From assembly GCF_001723355.1 (NCBI RefSeq), contig NZ_LPWE01000010.1:186001-250000 (forward strand): a stretch of DNA of 64,000 nt, given 5' to 3'. The notes under the pieces were generated by a model that was not told the DNA's origin, did no database searches, and was given only the letters and a program-made list of their open reading frames with translations. Of the stretch, positions 2,638-15,916 are shown one piece after another. This DNA comes from Methyloceanibacter stevinii. GTDB taxonomy: Bacteria; Pseudomonadota; Alphaproteobacteria; Rhizobiales; Methyloligellaceae. The position numbers were made by a program, and so were the translations under genes. Position 1 is the first letter of the stretch, and the number at the start of each line of letters is the position of its first letter.

Positions 2638-3417
2638 TCAGGCAGAGCCTAGCGTGGCCCTGGCCTCATCCACAAGTCGTACGAGTTCCTTTCGCGCGTC
2701 CTGCGGGGTGTGAATCCGGCCCCTGAAATCGATCCGCAGGGCCTCGGTGCCCCGCACAAGATCGCACCCGAGCGGATCGAGCCCGCTCATTAGCCAAAGG
2801 GGGTGCCGCCGGATCAGGCGCCACACCGCCGAAGACTTGCGCATAGAGAGCGACGGCGGCGGCATGGTCCTCGTTGTGCGCGACGATGCCGTCCTCAGCC
2901 TCCAGGAGGCTCTCCGCGCCCGCGAGCGGGACCAGCAGGTCCTCCGGCGATAAGTCGACGATGCGGCCGAAGCCGCCGATGAAATGGGCGCCTCGATTTC
3001 CAGCCTCCAGAACGAAAAATCCGGAAAATCCGCGTAAAACGCGGCCTGAGCCTGCCGGGCCAGGAACCGCCGGCGAGCGGCCGGATCGTCCGTCCGTTCG
3101 GCTCGCCCGCTGAGCGTCAGGCGCGCGCCTTGCAGCGGATCGCCGCCGCCGGGACCCCCCAAACCCGTCCCGTCCAGAAGGATCGCCGCGCGAGGGTCGG
3201 CCACCAGATTGCGCGTATGCCGGGCCAGCGTCGAAATGAGGAAGATGGGCGACCCGTCCACCTCCGTCGCCAGGGTGATGAGCGAGGCATAAGGCGCCCC
3301 GGAAGGGGCCTCCAAGGTCGCCAAAGTGCCCTTGGTCGATAGTCGCACGAGGCTGCGCGCTTCGGCCGCGATCCCTGCCATATCGGGTAATTCTGGAGAG
3401 TTATTTACTTGCGCCAT
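2638..3417 (-). CDS. HugZ-like pyridoxamine-phosphate-oxidase-fold protein with C-terminal DUF2470, two compensating frameshifts
   Basis: The protein begins [15 protein letters not shown], has a split-barrel FMN/heme-binding domain ([45 protein letters not shown]) and ends with a DUF2470-type domain ([14 protein letters not shown]). HugZ and HutZ relatives bind or degrade heme; some members are of unknown role. The middle is out of frame: restoring one G near 2988 gives [18 protein letters not shown], and removing one base of the C run near 2808 returns to the original frame. Both sites are homopolymers and the shifted segment reads as good family sequence, so the two shifts are probably sequencing errors. 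The ATG at 3417 is chosen because upstream residues do not resemble the family. It faces away from chvI. Confidence 0.75.
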
Positions 3418-3558
3418 AACGGTTTTTGTTGCATCCCGGTATTGATGGGTCGGGCGCACGGCGCCCCAAGCTTTGCCCCGATGCTGCCATGGTTTTCACG
3501 CAGCGCTAGGAGCATAACACCCAGTCAATCGCGTACAGCGCGCAAAAAGGCCCCCCCT

Positions 3559-4254
3559 ATGCCAACAATTGCCCTTGTCGATGACGACAGAAACATTCTT
3601 ACCTCCTTGCGCATGGTGCTCGAGGCGGAAGGGTATAAGACCCAGACCTACAACGACGGCGCCAGCGCGCTGGACGGCTTGTTCGACAGTCCGCCCGATC
3701 TCGCCATCCTCGACATCAAGATGCCGCGCATGGACGGCATGGAGCTCCTGCGGCGCCTTCGTCAGCGCACGGAGATGCCCGTGATCTTCCTCACCTCGAA
3801 AGACGAGGAGATCGACGAGCTGTTCGGCCTCAAGATGGGTGCGGACGACTACATCCGGAAACCCTTCCCGCAGCGTCTGCTGATCGAGCGCGTCAAGGCG
3901 GTGCTGCGGCGCGCCCAGCCCCGCGACACGGCCCAAGTGGCGGACGACAAGTCCAAGGTCCTGGAGCGCGGCAAGCTGAAAATGGATTCCGAGCGCCACA
4001 CCTGCGTGTGGGACGGGTTGCCGGTGACCCTCACCGTGACCGAGTTCCTGATCTTGCAGGCGCTGGCGCAGCGCCCGGGCGTGGTAAAAAGCCGGGACGC
4101 GCTGATGGATGCGGCCTATGATGATCAAGTCTATGTCGACGACCGCACAATCGACAGCCACATCAAGCGGTTGCGGAAGAAGTTCAAGGCCGTCGACCAA
4201 AGCTTCGATGTGATCGAGACGCTCTATGGTGTGGGCTATCGCTTCAAAGAATAA
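3559..4254 (+). CDS. chvI: Two-component response regulator ChvI
   Basis: A 231-residue OmpR-class regulator. The receiver domain (residues 1-120) has the acidic pair in LVDDDRN, the phospho-acceptor Asp52 in [13 protein letters not shown], the conserved Thr/Ser in FLTSKD and Lys in DDYIRKPF. The winged-helix domain fills residues 135-230 and ends [11 protein letters not shown], the usual OmpR-family end. With ChvG it forms the acid- and envelope-stress system that controls exopolysaccharide, motility and cell-envelope genes in Hyphomicrobiales. The ATG at 3559 comes after a purine stretch and starts the receiver fold directly. chvG follows 12 bases downstream, so the two are co-transcribed. 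Confidence 0.95.
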
Positions 4255-4266
4255 CAGGCGGCACCA

Positions 4267-6081
4267 ATGACCGCCGAGGCCGAAAGGTCCTGGCAGCCGG
4301 ACTCCGGAACGTGGCGCGCCCGCGCCATGCGCGTGGGCCGTGCCGGTCTCTATTGGGTCCGCCGCGCCACGCGCTGGCTCGGGCAGCACCGTCCGTTCCG
4401 TCACGGCTTCTCGAGCCTCACCCGCCGGATCGTCGTGCTGAATCTCATCGGCCTTGCGATCCTCGTCTCGGGCATTCTGTATCTCAACGACCTGCGCGCC
4501 GCGTTGATCGGCGCCGAGGTCCAGAGCCTTCAGACGCAAGGCGAGATCATCGCCCGCGCTATCGCCGCATCGGCAGGCGTCGATGCCGGCGAGTCCGACG
4601 TCGACCCGGAGACGATCCTGGAACGGGAAATGGGCGATGCCGCCTTCTCCGAGAGCGACACGCTTCCCAACGCGCTCGGATTCACGATCGATCCCGAGCG
4701 CGCCGCACCGATCCTGCGCCCGCTGGTGAAACCGACGGGCAGCCGCGCGCGCATCTACGATCGCGACGGTGCACTGATCCTCGATTCCGACACGTTCTAT
4801 TCGCGCGGCGAGGTGCTGCGCTACGACCTGCCGCCGCCGGAAACGAGCGAACCCGACGCGCTGACAACGTTCTGGAACGCGGTGGCCAATCAGTTCCAGC
4901 CGCTGGACCTGCCGGTCTATACGGAGATCGGAACCGTGAACGGGAAAGCCTACCCAGAGGTCGAAGCCGCGCTAACGGGCACGTCCGTTCCCATCGTCCG
5001 CAAGAACGAGAAGGGTGAGATCGTCGTCTCCGTTGCCGTTCCCGTCGAACGCATGCGGTCGGTGCTCGGTGTGCTTTTGTTTTCGACCCGGGGCGGCGAT
5101 ATCGACAAGGTCGTTGCCGCGGAACGCTGGCGCATCTTCCGCGTCGCGCTGTTCGCCGCGGCTGTGACGGTCGTCCTGTCTCTCATTCTTGCGAACACGA
5201 TCGCCGGTCCCATGCAGCGCCTGGCGGTCGCGGCAGAGCGCGTGCGGCACAGCGTCAAGGCGCGCGCGGAGATCCCGGACTTCACGGACCGTTCCGACGA
5301 GATCGGCCATCTATCCGGCGCGCTCAGAGACATGACGGCAGCGCTCTACAACCGGATCGACGCGATCGAGAGTTTCGCCGCCGACGTCGCGCACGAACTG
5401 AAGAATCCTCTCACGTCGCTGCGCAGCGCGACCGAGACTCTGCCCGTGGTTAGGGACCAGGAATCGCGCACGCGCTTGATGGAAATCATCCAGCACGACG
5501 TGAAGCGGCTCGACCGTTTGATCAGCGACATCTCCGATGCCTCGCGTCTCGACGCGGAACTGGCCCGCGAGGATGCGGGGCCTGTCGACATGGACGACCT
5601 TCTGCGTGCAACCGTGTCGCTTTACAACGACATCCACCTCGACGAGCTGCCCGAAGTTTCGTTGGAGATCGAGCATGCGCCCGGGACCTACCCGTATCGC
5701 GTCTTCGGTCACGACAGCCGGCTGCACCAGGTGATGGTGAACCTGATCGAGAACGCGATCTCCTTCTCGCCGCCGCGAGGCCGCGTGACCATCACGGCGC
5801 GGCGGCGTGGGACCAATATCGAAATCCTGATCGAAGACGAGGGCCCGGGAATCCCGCCGGAGAATCTGGAGCGCATTTTCGAGCGCTTCTACACGGATCG
5901 GCCCCACGAGACGTTCGGCCAAAATTCCGGCCTCGGTCTCAACATCTCGCGCCAGATCATCGCGGCCCATGGCGGACGGCTCTACGCTGAGAACCGGCCG
6001 GCGCCGGGAGGCGAAGCCGGGGCGGCGGGCGTAAAGCGCAGCGGCGGTGCGCGCTTCGTCATCCGCCTTGCAGCGACGTAG
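4267..6081 (+). CDS. chvG: Sensor histidine kinase ChvG (ExoS type)
   Basis: A 604-residue inner-membrane sensor kinase. A cytoplasmic N-terminus is followed by a first membrane segment (about residues 57-75, IVVLNLIGLAILVSGILYL), a long periplasmic region (about 80-290), a second membrane segment (about 292-315), a HAMP linker, a HisKA domain with phospho-acceptor His376 in AHELKNPLTSL, and a catalytic domain with N box NLIENAISFS, G1 DEGPGIP and G2 NSGLGLNIS. The periplasmic part matches the ChvG sensing domain, which ExoR restrains in related bacteria; no exoR is visible here. The gene overlaps no neighbour but is followed within 17 bases by hprK, giving a chvI-chvG-hprK-EIIA-ptsH run. Confidence 0.95.
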   Translation: MTAEAERSWQPDSGTWRARAMRVGRAGLYWVRRATRWLGQHRPFRHGFSSLTRRIVVLNLIGLAILVSGILYLNDLRAALIGAEVQSLQTQGEIIARAIAASAGVDAGESDVDPETILEREMGDAAFSESDTLPNALGFTIDPERAAPILRPLVKPTGSRARIYDRDGALILDSDTFYSRGEVLRYDLPPPETSEPDALTTFWNAVANQFQPLDLPVYTEIGTVNGKAYPEVEAALTGTSVPIVRKNEKGEIVVSVAVPVERMRSVLGVLLFSTRGGDIDKVVAAERWRIFRVALFAAAVTVVLSLILANTIAGPMQRLAVAAERVRHSVKARAEIPDFTDRSDEIGHLSGALRDMTAALYNRIDAIESFAADVAHELKNPLTSLRSATETLPVVRDQESRTRLMEIIQHDVKRLDRLISDISDASRLDAELAREDAGPVDMDDLLRATVSLYNDIHLDELPEVSLEIEHAPGTYPYRVFGHDSRLHQVMVNLIENAISFSPPRGRVTITARRRGTNIEILIEDEGPGIPPENLERIFERFYTDRPHETFGQNSGLGLNISRQIIAAHGGRLYAENRPAPGGEAGAAGVKRSGGARFVIRLAAT

Positions 6082-6097: not shown

Positions 6098-6595
6098 ATG
6101 ACGCGCGATCCTGTCCGCGACGATGATCGAGAGACCGTTCACGGCACCTGCGTCGCACTGGGGACGGATGCCGTCTTGCTGCGCGGTGACTCGGGAACCG
6201 GCAAGTCCGACCTGGCCTTACGCTTTCTGGCCCTGCCGGTCAGCGAAGCGGGACAGCCGGCCCTCGTTGCCGACGATCAAGTTTGTTTGACGGCCACGGA
6301 CGACGGCCTAGTGGCGAGCCCCCCGCCAACTCTCGCGGGGCTCATTGAAGTGCGCGGGCTCGGAATTCAGACTGTCTCCTTTGCAGGTTCGGCGCGGCTG
6401 GTTGTCGTGTGCGATCTCGTGGCCGCACAGGATGTTCCCCGCATGCCCCCGGACCCCTGGGACCGGACCGTGCTGGCGGGAAGCGAGCTTCCTGTGCTCA
6501 AATTGGCGCCATTCGAGGCATCCGCGCCGTTGAAGCTTAGACTGGCGATCGTCGCCGCCACGGCGCACTTGCGCGGCGTGAACATTCGGGTTTAG
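6098..6595 (+). CDS. hprK: HPr kinase/phosphorylase, short alphaproteobacterial form
   Basis: A 165-residue HPr kinase/phosphorylase that phosphorylates a serine of HPr and so modulates the PTS. The Walker A loop is GDSGTGKS (residues 30-37), and the capping/catalytic motif region includes EVRGLGIQ. The N-terminal DRTGG-like domain of the Firmicutes enzyme is absent, as is usual in alphaproteobacteria. The ATG at 6098 is preceded by AGAGAAG. It sits directly after chvG and 86 bases before the EIIA gene, with HPr next, so enzyme and substrate are encoded together. Confidence 0.92.
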   Translation: MTRDPVRDDDRETVHGTCVALGTDAVLLRGDSGTGKSDLALRFLALPVSEAGQPALVADDQVCLTATDDGLVASPPPTLAGLIEVRGLGIQTVSFAGSARLVVVCDLVAAQDVPRMPPDPWDRTVLAGSELPVLKLAPFEASAPLKLRLAIVAATAHLRGVNIRV

Positions 6596-6681
6596 GAAGG
6601 CGCGGATCAGACTTGCACAGTCCCCGTCCGCCTGAAGAAGATAGTGGCCCATAGCGGGGCGGCATTCATCCCAGAGGTAAC

Positions 6682-7083
6682 ATGATCGGCGTCGTCATCG
6701 TGACCCACGGTAATCTGGCTTGCGAGTTCCGGGCAGCATTGGAGCATGTCGTCGGTCCTCAGGAGCAAGTCGAAACGATTTCGATCGGACCGGACGACGA
6801 TCTCGATGCGCGGCGCGCGGACATGCTCGCGGCGCTCGCCAAGGTCGATTCCGGCGACGGCGTTGTCGTCCTCACCGACATGTTCGGAGGCTCGCCGTCG
6901 AACCTTGCGATCTCGGCGATGGAAAAACCCGACGTCGAGGTCGTAGCCGGCGTCAACCTGCCGATGCTCGTGAAGCTGGCGAGCGTGCGCGGCGAATGCG
7001 GCCTCGAGGAAGCGATCACCCAGGCGCAGGAGGCCGGCCGCAAATATATCAGTGTCGCCAGCCAGATCCTCGCGGCGCACTAG
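6682..7083 (+). CDS. PTS mannose-type EIIA domain protein
   Basis: A 133-residue soluble EIIA of the mannose/fructose family. The phospho-acceptor His9 stands in VIVTHGNLA, and the fold motif VVLTDMFGGSPSNLA is intact. No EIIB, EIIC or EIID transport genes are near, so the protein is likely part of the regulatory PTS that receives phosphate from HPr rather than a sugar importer. RBS AGAGG precedes the ATG. It lies between hprK and ptsH, and ptsH starts on the next base after its stop, which argues for translational coupling. Confidence 0.93.
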   Translation: MIGVVIVTHGNLACEFRAALEHVVGPQEQVETISIGPDDDLDARRADMLAALAKVDSGDGVVVLTDMFGGSPSNLAISAMEKPDVEVVAGVNLPMLVKLASVRGECGLEEAITQAQEAGRKYISVASQILAAH

Positions 7084-7401
7084 ATGGGCAGCACGAAGGC
7101 CCGTATCGAACTCTCGGACCCCGCCAACGGGGCCTACGCGGCCAACGTCCTCATCCCGAACAAGAAGGGGCTCCACGCCCGCGCCTCGGCGCAGTTCGTG
7201 CGGACCGCCGGTGACTACAAGGCGAATGTCCAGGTCAGCCGAGACGGGCAGACGGTCGGCGGTACCTCGATCATGGGTCTCATGATGCTCGCGGCCGGGC
7301 AAGGCGACTTCATCCATATCGAGGCGAGCGGTGAGAGCGCGAAGGCCGCCATCCAGGCCCTCGTGGCCCTGGTCGAGGACGGCTTCGGCGAAGAGGACTA
7401 G
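7084..7401 (+). CDS. ptsH: Phosphocarrier protein HPr
   Basis: A 105-residue HPr. The PEP-dependent phospho-acceptor His31 is in KKGLHARASAQF, and Ser62 in GGTSIMGLMML is the equivalent of regulatory Ser46, the target of the HprK encoded two genes upstream. It has an N-terminal extension of about 15 residues compared with E. coli HPr. The start codon directly abuts the EIIA stop codon. It should pass phosphate from an EI (not in this window) to the EIIA encoded here and possibly to PtsN at 51.4 kb. Confidence 0.93.
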   Translation: MGSTKARIELSDPANGAYAANVLIPNKKGLHARASAQFVRTAGDYKANVQVSRDGQTVGGTSIMGLMMLAAGQGDFIHIEASGESAKAAIQALVALVEDGFGEED

Positions 7402-7443
7402 CAGCCCTTTCCTGAAGGTGGCGGGCAGCCTTGCAGGGCTTCG

Positions 7444-8020
7444 CTATTCCGCGCGCTTCTTGCCGGTCACCATCGACCGGGCGAGATTCTCACGATGCGC
7501 AAAGCTCGCAAACAAGACGGCTGAGATGTGAACGAGGATGAGCGCGAGCGTGACGTTCGCCAGCACCTCGTGCACTTCTTCGAACTGCTCGGCTGTCTGC
7601 TTGGTGACCATACCGGCAAGCGGACCTGCGTTCTCCTCACCCCCATACACGATCAGGCCGGCGATGCCGGTGAGGGCAAGCATCACGATGAGCGCCACGA
7701 TCATGTAGCCGCCCGCCGGGCTGTGCCCGAGATAGCGCTTGCCGTGCATCCGGAGCAGGTCTCGCACATAGGCGAACGCCGTCGACGGCGCATACAGGAA
7801 GTCGGTGAAGCGCGCGTGCTTGGAGCCCGACAAACCCCCAGATCACGCGGGCAATCAGCATCGCGGCGATCACGTAACCGGCCCACACATGGACGACGTG
7901 CGGATCCTCGACCAAGTAGGCGACGACGAAAGCAAGAACCACAGTCCAATGGAAAAAGCGGACGAAAGGATCCCAAACCACCACTTCCGTCCTGGAAGAA
8001 GCCTCGATCTCGTTCCCCAT
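7444..8020 (-). CDS. Cytochrome b561-type diheme membrane protein, one frameshift
   Basis: The protein starts MGNEIEASSRTEVVVWDPFVRFFHW and carries four membrane segments of the cytochrome b561/Ni-hydrogenase b-type family. Heme-ligand histidines are likely those in RFFHW, VVHVWAGY, RMHGKRYLGHSPAGG and FEEVHEVLAN/LVHISAV. Members pass electrons between quinol or diheme cytochromes and periplasmic partners. The frame breaks near 7833: removing one G of a G3 run turns GFVGL into GFVGSKHARFTDFLYAP, exactly the family sequence. This is probably a base-calling error. It faces leftward between ptsH and ahcY and has no obvious cytochrome c partner beside it. Confidence 0.8.
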
Positions 8021-8146
8021 GGTCTCATTCCTCAATAGATCCGCTGGCAATTTGCCATCCAGCAGGGACAACAAAAATGACGCAGATTAAAGGGACCTGA
8101 AACGGCGGCGCGGCAAATTTGCGCCCGGAAACCGCGCACCCCCATC

Positions 8147-8190
8147 TTGACTCCCCCACCCGCCTATAACATATAAGGACTTCTTTATAT
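8147..8190 (+). promoter_or_regulatory. Promoter and operator upstream of ahcY
   Basis: A -35-like TTGACT lies at 8147-8152 and an A/T-rich -10 candidate falls at about 8170-8176. An imperfect palindrome, ATATAAGGAC/TTCTTTATAT (8 of 10 positions paired), fills 8171-8190 and overlaps the -10, with an extra half-site TCTTTAT just after it. This AT-rich island stands out in GC-rich DNA. ArsR-family regulators of methionine-cycle genes are known to bind AT-rich palindromes in front of ahcY in Proteobacteria (the SahR type); assigning such a regulator here is inference. Confidence 0.5.
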
Positions 8191-8244
8191 CTTTATGCAG
8201 CCACGTTGCGAGACGCAACAGGCAGGACGCAAAGGCAGGACGGC

Positions 8245-9633
<1,389 letters not shown>

Positions 9634-9711: not shown

Positions 9712-12249
9712 CTAGTTCGCGTCCGCAGCTGACTTCTGCGCCGCCTCCAGTTTCTTCACGTCATCCGCCGTCAGCTCGGGCTGGTCCAGCGATATGGTCA
9801 GCTTGTCGAGCTTGGCGGTGAGCGCAAACGGGACCTGATAGTCGGCGTCGTCCACCGGTGTGCCCGTGTCGGCTCCGATGTCGAACGTCTCGTCCCATTG
9901 CAGGATCAGCGGCACCGTGCGTTCCACACGGTGTTCGGCGACCACTTTGCCGTCGACCGTCAGCGTGCCTGTTCCGCCCTTGCCGATACCGCTCATGTTG
10001 TCGAACGCCAGCGTACCCAGACCGAGCCCGTCATACTTGAAGTCGAACGAGATCGTGTGTTTGCCGGGGCTCAGCGCCTCCGAGGCCTCCCAGCGCGGGC
10101 GTTCCAGATCGAGCAGGTTCCACAGGAAGACTGGCTTGCCCTTCAGCAGATAAAAGCCGTAACCGCCGAAGCGCCCGCCATTGGTGTGGATCATGCCCTC
10201 GCCGCCGCCTTCCGGCACATCCACCTCGGCCGTGACGGTGTATGAAGTGTTCAGCAGGCTCGGCGCATCGCCGTGCGGAATGCCGGTGACCGTCTCGCCC
10301 GAATAGGTGAACTCCTTCCGTCCGGCGGTCACGTTGGGACGCGGCGCCACTAGACGTGTCGCGACCGAGGCGTCGAGCGGCAACGCATTGTACTTCTGCA
10401 GTTCCGCCCACAGCCGCTCCTTCATATCCCGCAGCTTCTCGGGATACTTGTCCGCGACGTTGTCGTTCTGCGTCCAATCCTCGGTCACGTGGTAGAGCTG
10501 CCACTCGTACGCGTTGGCCGGGTCGTCGATGGTCGGGCCAAGCAGAACCCATGGCGGCCGCGTGGGAACCGTGCTCAGCATCCAGCCGTCGTGGTAGAGG
10601 CCGCGCACGCCCATCATCTCGAAATACTGCGTCTTGTGATGCGAGGGCGCCTTCGCATTCGCCTTGTCGAAGGTGTAGGCGAGGCTGACCCCATCCATAG
10701 GCTTCTGCGCGACACCGTCGACCATGCGCGGAGCCGGAATGCCCGTGACCTCAAGCAATGTCGGCACGATGTCGATCACGTGGCCGAACTGTTCGCGGAT
10801 GCCGCCGAGATCGGTGATGTGCCCGGGCCACGAGACGGCCATGCCTTGGCGCGTGCCGCCGAAGAAGGCAGGGATCTGCTTGGTCCACTTGAAGGGCGTA
10901 TCGAAGGCCCAGGTCCAGGCGACCGCCATGTGGGGATAGGTCTCGTCCGTGCCCCAGGCGTCGTACCACTTCATCTGCTTGTCGACCGGAAGCTCGATGC
11001 CGTTGAACTGCATCACCTCGCTCGGCGTGCCATTGGGAGAGCCTTCGGCGCTCGAGCCATTGTCGCCACTGATATAGATGATCAGCGTGTCGTCGAGCTT
11101 GCCGAGATCGTCGACGGCCTGGATGACGCGTCCGATCTCATGATCGGTGTAGGCGAGATAGGCCGCATAGACGTTCGCCTGGCGGATATAGAGCTTCTTG
11201 TCCTCGTCGGAGAGCGTGTCCCATTTGCGCAGGAGCTTCTCGGGCCAGGGCGTCAGCTTCGCATCTTGCGGGATCACGCCGAGCCTTTTCTGATTGGCGA
11301 AGATCGTCTCGCGCAACTTGTTCCAACCGCCGTCGAACAGATGCATGTCGGTGATCTTCTCGATCCACTCCGGCGTCGGATGGTGCGGGGCGTGCGTCCC
11401 GCCCGGCACGTAGTGCAGCAGGAACGGCATGGACGGATCGATGTCGTTGAGCTGGTTCAGCCAGTGGATGGCGTCGTCCGCCATGGCCGTGGTCAGGTTC
11501 CACTTCGGATTGCCCACATAAGGGTAGATGGCCGTCGTGTTGCGGAACAGGTTCGGCTGCCACTGGCTCGTGTCGCCGCCGACAAAGCCGTAGAAGTACT
11601 CAAAGCCCATGCCCGTGGGCCATTGATTGAACGGGCCCGCTTGGCTCGCCACCCAATCGGGCGTGTTGTGGTCCTTGCCGAACCACGAGGTCCGGTAGCC
11701 GTTCTCGAGCAAGATGCGCCCGATGGTGGCGTTCTCCGGACCGATAAGGCTGTTGTAGCCGGGAAAACCCGTCGACTGCTCCGTGATCACGCCGAACCCG
11801 ACCGCATGATGGTTGCGTCCGGTGATCAGCGCCGCGCGCGTCGGCGAACACAGCGACGTGGAATGGAAGTTCGTATAGCGCAAGCCCGCATTCGCGATCC
11901 GGTCGAGCGCCGGTGTCGGAATCACCCCGCCGAACGTGCTCGGCGCCGCGAAGCCCACGTCGTCGGTCATGATGAGCAGAATGTTGGGCGCACCCTTGGG
12001 CGGCACGATCCGGGCCGGCCAGTAGGGCTTCGATTGGGACGCGTTGAGATTGATCTCGCCGCCGAAGGGCGCGGGCGGGTTCGGCAGGTAGTTCCCGTCG
12101 ATCGTGGACTTGTAGGTCGGTGACCCTGGCGCGGGGGCGTTCTCGGCAGCCTGCGCGACGCCCCCGACAAGCGGCGGGAGGATGCTGAAGGCCACGATCC
12201 CTGCGCACATGCAGGCGGCGGCCGCCTTGCGCCCAAACGGTATCATCAT
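9712..12249 (-). CDS. Secreted type I sulfatase (arylsulfatase)
   Basis: An 845-residue arylsulfatase that hydrolyses sulfate esters. The signal peptide covers about residues 1-37 (AAAACMCAGIVAFSILPPLVGG then VAQAAE), so it is exported. The metal site begins LLIMTDDVGF, and the formylglycine motif is Cys134 in LCSPTRAALITGRN, matching C-x-P-T/S-R. Further conserved segments are GKDHN, IIYISGDNG and GGTRQGMAVSWPG. At 845 residues it is much longer than the usual 500-550; the C-terminal 250 residues (VTAEVDVPEGGGEGMIHTNG onward) look like a beta-sandwich, as in the large bacterial arylsulfatase group. The ATG at 12249 follows GGAAGGA. No formylglycine-generating enzyme gene is nearby. Substrate unknown. 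Confidence 0.92.
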   Translation of the reverse strand: MMIPFGRKAAAACMCAGIVAFSILPPLVGGVAQAAENAPAPGSPTYKSTIDGNYLPNPPAPFGGEINLNASQSKPYWPARIVPPKGAPNILLIMTDDVGFAAPSTFGGVIPTPALDRIANAGLRYTNFHSTSLCSPTRAALITGRNHHAVGFGVITEQSTGFPGYNSLIGPENATIGRILLENGYRTSWFGKDHNTPDWVASQAGPFNQWPTGMGFEYFYGFVGGDTSQWQPNLFRNTTAIYPYVGNPKWNLTTAMADDAIHWLNQLNDIDPSMPFLLHYVPGGTHAPHHPTPEWIEKITDMHLFDGGWNKLRETIFANQKRLGVIPQDAKLTPWPEKLLRKWDTLSDEDKKLYIRQANVYAAYLAYTDHEIGRVIQAVDDLGKLDDTLIIYISGDNGSSAEGSPNGTPSEVMQFNGIELPVDKQMKWYDAWGTDETYPHMAVAWTWAFDTPFKWTKQIPAFFGGTRQGMAVSWPGHITDLGGIREQFGHVIDIVPTLLEVTGIPAPRMVDGVAQKPMDGVSLAYTFDKANAKAPSHHKTQYFEMMGVRGLYHDGWMLSTVPTRPPWVLLGPTIDDPANAYEWQLYHVTEDWTQNDNVADKYPEKLRDMKERLWAELQKYNALPLDASVATRLVAPRPNVTAGRKEFTYSGETVTGIPHGDAPSLLNTSYTVTAEVDVPEGGGEGMIHTNGGRFGGYGFYLLKGKPVFLWNLLDLERPRWEASEALSPGKHTISFDFKYDGLGLGTLAFDNMSGIGKGGTGTLTVDGKVVAEHRVERTVPLILQWDETFDIGADTGTPVDDADYQVPFALTAKLDKLTISLDQPELTADDVKKLEAAQKSAADAN

Positions 12250-12398
12250 GTCTTCCTTCCGAATTTGCCTAGGGCTCTGCCGATGCACCCTATCCGCAAC
12301 TTCCCGGCGAAACTTGCCATTCGGTGCCGTCTTGCGCGGATCGCGCCCGGCGGCAGGACTTGCGCTATACTGGCCCCTCATCGACGGGGGCCGATGGC

Positions 12399-13115
12399 AT
12401 GCGCACAGTCCTATTTGCTTTTCTGATCCTGACCGCTCTTAGCGGACAAGCCCGCGCGGGCGGCATGCTCGTCGAGCGCGCGGATGCCTCGCCCGCGCAA
12501 TGGACCGGCTGCTACGGCGGCGGCCATCTCGGCGGGGCCTGGGGCACCAGCGACAAATGGATCCCGCGAACGCCGGGCGGCGCCTTCGAAGGCGTGTCGC
12601 TGGGCGGCCACGACACAGACGGCTTCATCGGCGGCGTGCAGGCGGGCTGCGACGTTCAGCTTTCGAACGGCATCGTGCTCGGCATCGGCGGCGACTATGG
12701 CTGGACGGACGCGGACGGCACGCACCCCTCCGCCCGCGAAACGGGCGTGTTCTACCACAGCAAAACCGAAGGGCTCGGCGCGCTCACCGGACGCCTCGGC
12801 TATGGCTTCGGCGACGTGCTTCTCTACGCGGAAGGCGGCATGGCCTGGGAGCGCGTCTCGTATGCGGCTGCGACCACGCAGATCGGCACTGCCTACCGCG
12901 CCACCGACACACGCGATGGTTGGACCATCGGCGGCGGTGGCGAATACGCGCTTACGAAACACCTCTCCGTCTTCGTCGAATACGCCCATTACGACTTCGG
13001 CACCGAGCGCATCACGCTCGACCCGCAATACAGCTTCCTGCCGACGGCTTTCGTGGACATCGACGACACCGCGAATGTCGTCCGTACCGGGATCAATCTG
13101 CGGTTTGGACCCTAG
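12399..13115 (+). CDS. Outer-membrane beta-barrel protein (Omp25/Omp31-like)
   Basis: A 238-residue precursor with a signal peptide (MRTVLFAFLILTALSGQARA) and an eight-strand porin-like barrel pattern: alternating aromatic/glycine strands such as WTGCYGGGHLGGAWG, FIGGVQAGCDVQL and GRLGYGFGDVLLYAEGGMAWE. It ends VRTGINLRFGP, the aromatic-terminated last strand needed for outer-membrane insertion. Such proteins are abundant structural outer-membrane proteins in Hyphomicrobiales. Its final ~80 bases recur at about 13890-13983 (see repeat). It is divergent from the arylsulfatase gene with a 149-base gap that should hold both promoters. Confidence 0.85.
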   Translation: MRTVLFAFLILTALSGQARAGGMLVERADASPAQWTGCYGGGHLGGAWGTSDKWIPRTPGGAFEGVSLGGHDTDGFIGGVQAGCDVQLSNGIVLGIGGDYGWTDADGTHPSARETGVFYHSKTEGLGALTGRLGYGFGDVLLYAEGGMAWERVSYAAATTQIGTAYRATDTRDGWTIGGGGEYALTKHLSVFVEYAHYDFGTERITLDPQYSFLPTAFVDIDDTANVVRTGINLRFGP

Positions 13116-13886: not shown

Positions 13887-13983
13887 CCCGTACGGTTTCC
13901 TGCCGACGGCCTTTGTGGACATCGACGACACCGCGAATGTCGTCCGTGCGGGGATCAATCTGCGGTTTGGCCTGGGGCCGTAG
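13887..13983 (+). repeat. Duplicated 3' end of the beta-barrel gene at 12399-13115
   Basis: This stretch reads TACGGTTTCCTGCCGACGGC and on, and translates as YGFLPTAFVDIDDTANVVRAGINLRFGLGP with a stop. Over about 80 bases it matches 13036-13113 at all but about six positions, and most differences are silent or conservative. No other part of a beta-barrel gene, signal peptide or start precedes it, so it is an isolated C-terminal remnant of a paralogue. The region 13751-13886 between it and the holin-like gene holds nothing recognised. Confidence 0.8.
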
Positions 13984-13996
13984 CGCAAGTAGAGAA

Positions 13997-15229
13997 TCAA
14001 CCGCCGAAGATGACGGCGCGGATCGGCAGCATCAGGGCTTGGGCACGGATGACAATGGCGTTGGCGATGCCCATGCCGTCCACGACCCGCATCAGGAGCG
14101 CGCGGCCGCCCGTGATCTTGCCTTCGTCGATCGCGCGGGCGTGACTGGTGTAGGCGACACCGTTGCAGACACTCCCGCGCGGCAGTGCGCCGGCCTGACT
14201 ACCTTCGAAGACCGGCTCGAGAAACGTCAGAATCGTGCCGGGCCGGGCGCGCTCCTCCACATCAAGGAGCTGGTCGCTGGGCCGAACCTGGCCGCCCGCA
14301 ATGACGTCCTGCACGTCGGTGATGACCATGGGAATGACGGTCAGCGGTTTGGAGGAGCAGGTGATCTCGGTGATCATGCCCACATGTAGCACTTGGGCAG
14401 AGATCTGCCCGAACGTGGCGAGGACCACGGGGCCTTCGGACGACGTCGGCACCAAGATCCCCGCAGGCCGGAGGACCGGACTGACAATGTCGCCCCGCCT
14501 CAGGACGAATTGCTTCACCGTGCCGTCCGTGCCGGCGAACACGGTCGCCTTTTCGATTTCCGTCTCCGCCTCCGCGAGGGCGGCTTCGGCACTCGCGCGC
14601 TGTGCGGGCAGGCTGGCCGAGATCTGCGACTCGACCACGTCGCGTTGCGCCCGCGCGGCTTTCAGCGCGCCTTCGCGGCTCTCGGCCGCCGCGCCGAGGC
14701 GCACGAGTTCTTGCGCCGAGACGACACTTGGATTGCGCTCATACAGCTCTTCCCGGCGCTTCAGTTCGTCCTGCGCCTGCCGCAACGCGCCTTCCGCGAC
14801 GACGATGTTGCCCTTGGCGACGCTGAGTTCGGACTGGGCTTGCGTCATGGCCGCGTCGACCTCGGCGATCCGGCGGCGTGCCGTCTCGGCCGCCGCGCGC
14901 TGCCGGCTCGTATCGAGGCTGAAGATCCGGTCGCCCGCCTTCACCTCCTGATTGTTGGTGACATACACCTCTTCGACCCGGCCCGGCCGATCGGAAATGA
15001 TCGAGACGGTGCGGAAACCGACGATGACGTTCGAGGCGATCGGGTGGAAGTAGAAGATGACGGTAACGAGCGTGGTGGTCAGGACGGCGCACGCGGTGAT
15101 GCCCCAACGCAGCTCGTACCAGAAATTATACAGCGTGATTTCTTCGCCAAAGCGCTTGCCCTGGCCGTATCGCCGATAGAGATAGTCGGGCAGGATCGTA
15201 ACGAGGAAGCTGAATATGAGCTCAATCAT
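13997..15229 (-). CDS. HlyD-family membrane fusion protein with a shared N-terminal module
   Basis: A 410-residue periplasmic adaptor. Residues 9-43 are a conserved cytosolic module (LPDYLYRRYGQGKR, EITLYNFWYELRWG) nearly identical to that of the upstream gene product. A membrane helix follows (about 44-62), then the first half of a barrel-sandwich domain (SDRPGRVEEVYVTNNQEVKAGDRIFSLD), an alpha-hairpin coiled coil (about 105-210) and the second half (KATVFAGTDGTVKQFVLRRGDIV). HlyD/EmrA-like proteins bridge an inner-membrane transporter to the outer membrane; no transporter or TolC gene is seen here. It starts 3 bases after the stop of the upstream gene, so the two form an operon. Confidence 0.85.
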   Translation of the reverse strand: MIELIFSFLVTILPDYLYRRYGQGKRFGEEITLYNFWYELRWGITACAVLTTTLVTVIFYFHPIASNVIVGFRTVSIISDRPGRVEEVYVTNNQEVKAGDRIFSLDTSRQRAAAETARRRIAEVDAAMTQAQSELSVAKGNIVVAEGALRQAQDELKRREELYERNPSVVSAQELVRLGAAAESREGALKAARAQRDVVESQISASLPAQRASAEAALAEAETEIEKATVFAGTDGTVKQFVLRRGDIVSPVLRPAGILVPTSSEGPVVLATFGQISAQVLHVGMITEITCSSKPLTVIPMVITDVQDVIAGGQVRPSDQLLDVEERARPGTILTFLEPVFEGSQAGALPRGSVCNGVAYTSHARAIDEGKITGGRALLMRVVDGMGIANAIVIRAQALMLPIRAVIFGG

Positions 15230-15232
15230 GGA

Positions 15233-15784
15233 TCAGGTCTTTGTCTCGCTACTCTTAGACAGCGCCTTCGCCATATCCTTCAGCGGCGTCACGAAGTCGG
15301 GGAACCGAATGGAGGCCAAGACCAGACCGGCGACCCAGTAGATGTTGTTGAAGGTGAACAGCGAAATGAGGCCGAGGATGCCAACGATCTGAAGCTGCAC
15401 CTTCGTGGCGCCCCGCGCCAGGCGGTCGGGCCAAGCTTGAATTCGGAAGTACAGAAGGCCGAGGCCTAAGACGACGAGCACCAATGAAAGGGCCACCGCG
15501 ACAAGCAGCCCGTCCGTGTGCCCCGGCGCCGTGATGAAGAACGGCAGGTCGTTGGCCGATGCGTTTCCGTTCACCGTAGTCATCTCGGCCGACCCCACAT
15601 CGCCACCGCCACCCAGCAAAAGGATCAACAGGACAAGTACGATCCAGGCTATCAACCCCCAGCGCAGTTCGTACCAGAAATTATGCAGCGTGATCTCTTT
15701 GCCTGGCCGCTTTCCCTGGCCGTAGCGCCTGTAGATATAGTCAGGGAGGATCGTGACGAGCGCGCTGATGAGGAACGGCATCAT
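15233..15784 (-). CDS. Membrane protein of unknown function sharing its N-terminus with the adjacent HlyD protein
   Basis: I do not recognise a named family. The 183-residue product has the N-terminal module (residues 9-43; 31 of 35 identical to the next gene's product, differing at positions 17, 27, 29 and 34), a membrane helix at about 45-60, a short periplasmic stretch, and further helices at about 92-112 and 133-160. It ends in a hydrophilic tail (DMAKALSKSSETKT). The RBS AAGGAG precedes the ATG pair at 15784. Being first in the operon with the HlyD-type adaptor, it may be that adaptor's inner-membrane partner; this is inference. Confidence 0.7.
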   Translation of the reverse strand: MMPFLISALVTILPDYIYRRYGQGKRPGKEITLHNFWYELRWGLIAWIVLVLLILLLGGGGDVGSAEMTTVNGNASANDLPFFITAPGHTDGLLVAVALSLVLVVLGLGLLYFRIQAWPDRLARGATKVQLQIVGILGLISLFTFNNIYWVAGLVLASIRFPDFVTPLKDMAKALSKSSETKT

Positions 15785-15916
15785 GGATCACTCCTTGGTT
15801 GGATAGGCGGTGGCCGGACCAGGCTAGAGACTGGGACAATACCGCCAAAATCCAAGGCCGTCAGCGTCGCCAAACCGGCGTGGAGGAAGGCATCGCCACA
15901 TGCGCGGTCCAGAACG

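Follow-up and report, generated by a model that had tools for sequence, protein, structure and literature searches.

A putative copy of a membrane-fusion protein's N-terminal anchor on the small membrane protein encoded upstream of it in Methyloceanibacter stevinii

The gene pair and its shared N-terminal module

The window, by which we mean the whole 64,000-nucleotide stretch analyzed here, encodes on its reverse strand a small membrane protein of 183 aa (15233..15784, an open reading frame whose product is DUF3302-like and apparently begins with a copied module) and, directly after it, an HlyD-type membrane-fusion protein (MFP) of 410 aa (hlyD, 13997..15229). The hlyD ATG lies 3 bases after the stop codon of the small-protein gene, and a Shine-Dalgarno-like AAGGAG, noticed on reading the sequence, lies 5' of the start of the small-protein (fused) gene on the same strand (15791..15796). 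A promoter scan of the locus detected no sigma-70-like site, and the count of terminator-like sites was uninformative (3 observed against 1.6 +- 1.2 in shuffled sequences).

The two proteins begin almost identically. Over residues 9-43 they agree at 31 of 35 positions, just as a preliminary description of this DNA had claimed, and over residues 1-43 at 33 of 43; in a shuffling control (300 shuffles, both proteins), the best 35-residue window contained 13 identities. BLASTP of the small protein against the MFP, run as a single comparison, yielded 34 of 47 identical residues (E = 9e-23). The same description had found the DNA of the two gene starts alike, and self-BLASTN bears this out with a 104 bp match of 83.7% identity between 15657..15760, the side of the copy, and 15102..15205, the presumed source within hlyD (both on the reverse strand). 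The likeness starts a few bases 5' of the ATG (TGATCCATGAT at both starts, in the window) and ends at about base 120. Beyond the module, residues 44-60 of the two proteins are identical at 3 of 17 positions.

The small protein can accordingly be read in three parts, all on the reverse strand: the copied module (residues 1-43, 15656..15784); a transmembrane stretch with a fast-diverging linker, the putative fusion joint, delimited by hydropathy and by comparison with a second Methyloceanibacter locus, L017 (residues 44-79, 15548..15655); and a core which, by alignment and by the same comparison, matches the unfused partner protein found elsewhere (residues 80-183, 15236..15547). The original module comprises MFP residues 1-43 (15101..15229, reverse strand) and is found on MFP-size frames in many genomes.

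Identity of the two proteins

The window's small protein retrieved no match in Pfam, none in PHROGs, and none among solved structures at E 1. Among its relatives, 20 of 42 matched PF11742 (DUF3302) at E 0.01 or better (best 3e-06), the next family by number being Cyt_bd_oxida_II with 7 of 42 (best 3.6e-04). Relatives in three of five genomes scored E 7.5e-05 to 1.8e-04 against DUF3302, which corresponds to 24-25 bits against a cut-off of 32, and the module-type copy of genome G022 reached 12 bits; at a loose E of 1, 6 of 14 control genomes also matched, one of them above the cut-off. A comparison with DUF3302 using hhalign, run profile to profile along the two-helix core with 3 DUF3302 sequences on one side, gave E 1.1e-05 and a probability of 82% over 76 columns. 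We describe the small protein as DUF3302-like, in the sense that relatives of its core bear a remote resemblance to this family, and not as a DUF3302 member.

The MFP matches Biotin_lipoyl_2 (PF13533) with 36.2 bits against a cut-off of 29.8, and the lipoyl half-motif behind this above-cut-off match (4.9e-09) spans residues 78-106 (14912..14998, reverse strand). All 20 of its NCBIfam matches fell below the respective cut-offs (e.g., MdtN with 79.2 against 376 bits), and no EmrA, MdtN, or AaeA equivalog was assigned. Solved structures retrieved were those of EmrA (8zar, 1.9e-08, and 8zal, 4.7e-08) and of a putative MacA (0.0033), and PHROGs returned two unnamed weak matches. The AlphaFold model of the MFP contains a long helical hairpin (helices 108-165 and 172-228, with pLDDT 84-93 in the ten-residue blocks from 111 to 220) and is mostly unreliable outside it.

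A family profile built from 42 members was scored against seven E. coli MFPs, which are not all of the MFPs of that organism. YiaV (131 bits) and YibH (127) were the best of the seven, followed by MdtN (97), YbhG (58), EmrA (55), AaeA (46), and YhiI (36); using YiaV, YibH, and MdtN as outgroups, the MFP tree does not settle closeness to YiaV/YibH. Because the family-profile match to YiaV begins at model position 50, after the module, this match provides no evidence of homology between the module and the YiaV N-terminus.

Distribution of the module and of the gene pair

A profile of the module (the first 55 residues, 11 rows) was searched at E 1e-5 against three partly overlapping sets of genomes. 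The phylum set yielded 23 matches in 18 of 398 genomes, and only one of the 23, the window's own, lies on a small protein. The order set yielded 66 matches in 59 of 397 genomes, of which 63 are on frames of 407-537 aa (MFP size), 2 are on small proteins (in the window's genome and in G990), and the remaining one is on a 160 aa frame near a contig start (G965). From the order of G022 came 49 matches in 41 of 244 genomes, all on frames of 408-475 aa and none on a small protein. Among the loci that were read, the module was found on the small protein only in the window, in the second Methyloceanibacter (L017, from Methyloceanibacter sp. MO_226.B1, evidently genome G990 and so the same locus as L072), and in L018, a 3177-base contig binned as Chromatiales. 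None of the nine relatives read from G022's order (L117-L125) has the module on its small protein, and relatives on plasmids (112 records for the small protein and 109 for the MFP) were unfused in both records read (L131 and L132). Going by these matches, the module belongs to the MFP. It is not normally shared by both partners in the loci read, where, outside the three fused cases, the MFP alone carries it.

The two genes themselves do co-occur in other genomes. We picked 40 stretches from the matches and added L018 and the window to obtain a sample of 42 module-bearing MFP genes (L091, among the 40 stretches, was taken for a canonical DUF3302 gene and is without the module), and a small gene lies directly upstream on the same strand in 42 of 42. 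Shorter loci from the searches, a set which overlaps the 42-gene sample and speaks to presence rather than adjacency, contain both genes in 52 of 52 cases. By their sequences, YiaW/YiaV-like pairs of this kind occur in many Proteobacteria. Two genomes hold more than one copy: in G1022 (L078), about 1.4 kb separates two module-type pairs that face each other (3387-5180 and 6544-8304), and G022 (L110, L111, L091) has two module-type pairs plus a canonical DUF3302 gene with an MFP-like frame after it.

Within Methyloceanibacter, the small protein was found in 2 of 17 genomes, or in 2 of 8 when the count is restricted to genomes with completeness of 90% or more and contamination of 5% or less, and two genomes from the window's family (L073 and L074) carry an unfused pair on another branch of the MFP tree. 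Due to this sparse occurrence in the genus and the other-branch pairs in the family, the window's pair was probably acquired, or else patchily lost. The fused pair of L018 is flanked by transposase fragments (PF13610 and PF13701; L018 3-323, 2316-2711, and 2759-3175), which fits mobility. The third of these frames resembles an IS110 transposase by eye and has no Pfam match, and the assignment of this contig to Chromatiales may be wrong. In genome G186, where no module match was detected, the pair is evidently broken by deletion or rearrangement, with a small-protein-like frame running into a C-terminal piece of the MFP (L007, approximately 1438-1770).

Origin of the copy and selection on it

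The window, L072, and L018 group as one clade in the MFP tree (100/96), and this fused clade nests with L110, whose small protein is without the module, as its sister (100/99). A tree of the small-protein core agrees weakly (83/30 for the fused rows and 98/95 when the unfused sister group is included). This tree position and the DNA match point to a partial, in-frame duplication in which the 5' end of hlyD would have been placed onto the start of the upstream partner gene, and thus favor the intragenic duplication arming both proteins that the preliminary description had offered as one of its options. Residue 68 marks the approximate position of the small protein's original start, and its unfused relatives begin at about the same place. 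What appears to be new at this locus is the module copy on the small protein, confined to one clade among the sampled loci.

The opposite history, in which the fused form is ancestral and was lost elsewhere, was judged less likely because the three fused loci nest as a single clade within the MFP tree. Constrained trees of the 132-bp module do not separate one duplication from two (AU p 0.33 and 0.39). Gene conversion between the two module copies is possible, since at silent sites the two copies within the window (pS 0.51) are no more distant from each other than are the small-protein copies of the window and L017 (pS 0.57). A further partial duplication lies within the same few kilobases, where 80 bases past the end of hlyD (13891-13970) are 92.5% identical to the 3' end of an outer-membrane beta-barrel gene (13029-13108) and may be a partial duplicate or a relic.

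Between the window and L017, dN/dS is 0.069 for the copied module (36 of 43 residues identical), 0.53 for the linker of residues 44-79 (13 of 36), 0.013 for the core (93 of 96 over residues 80-175), and 0.016 for the original MFP module, all of which are rough values because silent sites are near saturation (dS 1.06 to more than 3 in several comparisons). Against L018, where silent sites are likewise close to saturation and the values rough, the copied module gives 0.071 (window) and 0.156 (L017). Across the three genome pairs, residues 1-43 of the small protein are identical at 36, 27, and 25 of 43 positions. Judged from these substitution patterns, the copied module is under purifying selection, and it does not behave as a leftover, since a leftover would drift like the linker. 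A selected copy fits a shared docking or anchoring role.

Genomic neighborhood

Genes neighboring the window's pair code for a sulfatase, an outer-membrane beta-barrel protein, a holin-superfamily-IV-like protein, and a zinc-binding dehydrogenase. No transporter or TolC-type gene was detected among the window neighbors scanned. The absence of a nearby transporter asserted in the preliminary description therefore stands for these neighbors, while the absence of an outer-membrane channel stands for TolC-type channels but not more broadly, as the beta-barrel gene (PF13505, 12324-13115) is located some 0.9 kb past the end of hlyD. A TolC-type protein with an above-cut-off match is encoded on another contig of the genome, along with one further match below the cut-off.

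A third gene was sought by clustering the neighbors over the 42 loci, with family labels that we set from kinship, counting the extra G022 locus and each of the two genera in the window's family separately. Three large clusters beyond the pair itself (77, 23, and 20 frames) all overlap the pair and are shadow frames; the small clusters contain between 3 and 8 frames each, drawn from 3 or 4 families. No third gene recurs widely beside the pair across the 42 loci. Individual neighborhoods include an arylsulfatase, DUF3300, DUF2950, and a mechanosensitive channel on S. meliloti pSymA (where the small gene is unannotated although its frame is present), an AI-2E transporter and ppk2 in Sinorhizobium sp. 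M103, MFS transporters about 2 kb from the pair in R. leguminosarum, ABC transporter genes 2.4 kb from it in Martelella, and an AI-2E transporter and an ion channel at L017. These neighbors bring envelope or osmotic stress to mind, which we take only as a hint.

Some smaller recurrences were also seen. A gene that resembles polyphosphate kinase 2 by eye lies near the pair in five loci from three families (L075, L080, L092, L099, and L102), and the ppk2 of Sinorhizobium sp. M103 (L133 9693-10550) is annotated beside it. A frame of about 600 residues, not overlapping the pair, occurs in L079, L081, L085, and L096 (4 families). Sulfatase genes are near the pair both in the window (9712-12381, PF00884) and on S. 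meliloti pSymA (L132 1-1635, the annotated arylsulfatase).

Relation to known gene pairs

The preliminary description had proposed that this might be an unrecognized two-component envelope system. As a pair, the arrangement is already known: it is that of E. coli yiaW-yiaV and yibI-yibH, in which a DUF3302 gene (yiaW or yibI) stands immediately before an MFP gene (yiaV or yibH, respectively), the products being annotated as a DUF3302 protein and a putative membrane fusion or inner membrane protein. The likeness extends to the number and order of genes (two, a few bases apart, with the small membrane protein first), to the lack of a transporter gene directly beside them (except for mtlA, divergent from yibI), to remote DUF3302 similarity, and to a two-hump MFP N-terminus. 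In contrast to the window's small protein, YiaW and YibI (107 and 120 aa) are without the module, and the module's sequence is unrecognizable in YiaV and YibH. Closer to the window are the unfused pairs of Hyphomicrobiales and other Proteobacteria, such as that on R. leguminosarum plasmid pRL23b5 (a hypothetical protein and a biotin/lipoyl-binding protein), which share the gene order and an MFP with the module, but whose small protein lacks the module and often has a longer C-terminal tail. A small-protein gene also precedes the MFP gene in E. coli AaeX-AaeA-AaeB and YtcA-MdtN-MdtO-MdtP; however, in these systems efflux subunit genes follow on the same strand, and AaeA and MdtN have a single N-terminal hydrophobic stretch.

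Excerpts of published reports provide some context. Deletion of yibH in Klebsiella pneumoniae was among those lowering plaque formation by several evolved phages (PMC11796411), and a yiaW deletion in E. coli is cited from others' work as having improved transformation (PMC12844161). YiaW is described as an inner-membrane protein of unknown function whose disruption left the studied phagosome trait unchanged (PMC5495878), YiaV is classed as uncharacterized (PMC10971958), and YiaU is stated to regulate yiaT and LPS core genes (PMC9068703). In E. coli, YiaU is encoded beside yiaV. As excerpted, the reports on YiaW, YibH, and YiaU point to the envelope, and none of them gives a mechanism. Our literature search likewise retrieved no mechanism for YiaW/YiaV-like pairs, and no module duplication, among the matches listed.

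A putative membrane anchor and the role of its copy

The preliminary description placed the module in the cytosol ahead of the first helix, which is doubtful because the opening 15 residues are hydrophobic throughout the family. In a hydropathy profile of 41 of the 42 family members (one out-of-register row was dropped), residues 1-15 are hydrophobic (mean 1.6), residues 17-31 carry a net charge of about +3.6, and a transmembrane helix follows (peak 2.4). Two such N-terminal hydrophobic humps are present in the MFP family, YiaV, and YibH, as opposed to one in EmrA, AaeA, and MdtN. This hydropathy pattern suggests a module that belongs to a two-part membrane anchor, whose positive loop would lie in the cytosol, rather than a free cytosolic dock. 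AlphaFold, run on single chains with three sequences each, places low-confidence helices at 2-22 and 33-58 (small protein) and at 2-23 and 33-60 (MFP), with ten-residue blocks of the first 60 residues at pLDDT 46-61 and 38-58 and mean pLDDT of 47.6 and 49.4, respectively. Because these models are poor, the N-terminal anchor hairpin stays putative.

We propose the following course of events. The MFP would be anchored by a hydrophobic segment (approximately residues 2-16), a strongly positive loop (RRYGQGKR...), and a transmembrane helix. In the window's lineage, an in-frame duplication of the 5' end of hlyD would have extended the upstream gene at its start, so that the small protein gained an anchor ahead of its two original hydrophobic segments, and selection would have kept the copy. 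According to an excerpt of PMC8277102, MFPs such as MacA and YknX form hexamers, and in ABC and MFS pumps the MFP typically has an N-terminal helix as its anchor. If MFP subunits touch one another through their N-terminal anchors, then an anchor copy may let the small protein join or cap the membrane ring of the MFP, turning a same-with-same contact into a mixed one. Co-assembly of the small protein with the MFP is our best guess as to what the copy brings about. The explanation as a whole, namely that two genes, the first for a small inner-membrane protein and the second for an MFP, form a YiaW/YiaV-like envelope unit in which the MFP's anchor has been copied and kept and the small protein co-assembles with the MFP, is in our estimation about evenly poised between right and wrong. 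The narrower idea that the mixed membrane ring forms a fixed two-protein assembly spanning the periplasm with no dedicated transporter is tentative, and we lean against it.

Two other uses of a selected copy deserve weighing. The module might dock a third protein, such as a transporter or cytosolic factor encoded elsewhere, that is thereby recruited twice, as the preliminary description envisaged. Within the anchor, charge is highest in the loop (net about +3.6 over residues 17-31), which is kept in both copies, and the lack of a widely recurring third gene next to the pair leaves room for a partner encoded elsewhere. However, no candidate for such a protein was found, no neighbor cluster exceeds 4 of about 24 families once pair-overlapping frames are excluded, and the module includes a hydrophobic stretch that is more like an anchor than a soluble dock, such that we consider this docking role unlikely.

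The copy could instead be a convenient signal anchor that aids the small protein's insertion or expression, with no specific contact involved. The stretch after the copy is still hydrophobic while its sequence is unlike that of the MFP (3 of 17 identical), and an extra anchor would determine the topology, given that unfused relatives start only a short way ahead of their first hydrophobic segment. Any hydrophobic helix would suffice for this purpose, yet all three genomes largely preserve both the charged loop and the WYELRWG end, and we hold a pure signal-anchor role to be quite improbable. That the copy is a passive leftover, with the true start of the small protein at an internal Met at about residue 68, near where unfused relatives start, is very hard to reconcile with its dN/dS of 0.069 (a rough value), a frame that is open in three genomes, and the AAGGAG preceding the upstream ATG.

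Returning to co-assembly through the copied anchor, a natural and selected transfer of this kind hints that the two proteins meet in the membrane, and where they do so. The anchor copy would thereby supply a concrete contact for a family that otherwise offers none, and a mixed ring, if true, would show which part of YiaV-type MFPs meets the small protein.
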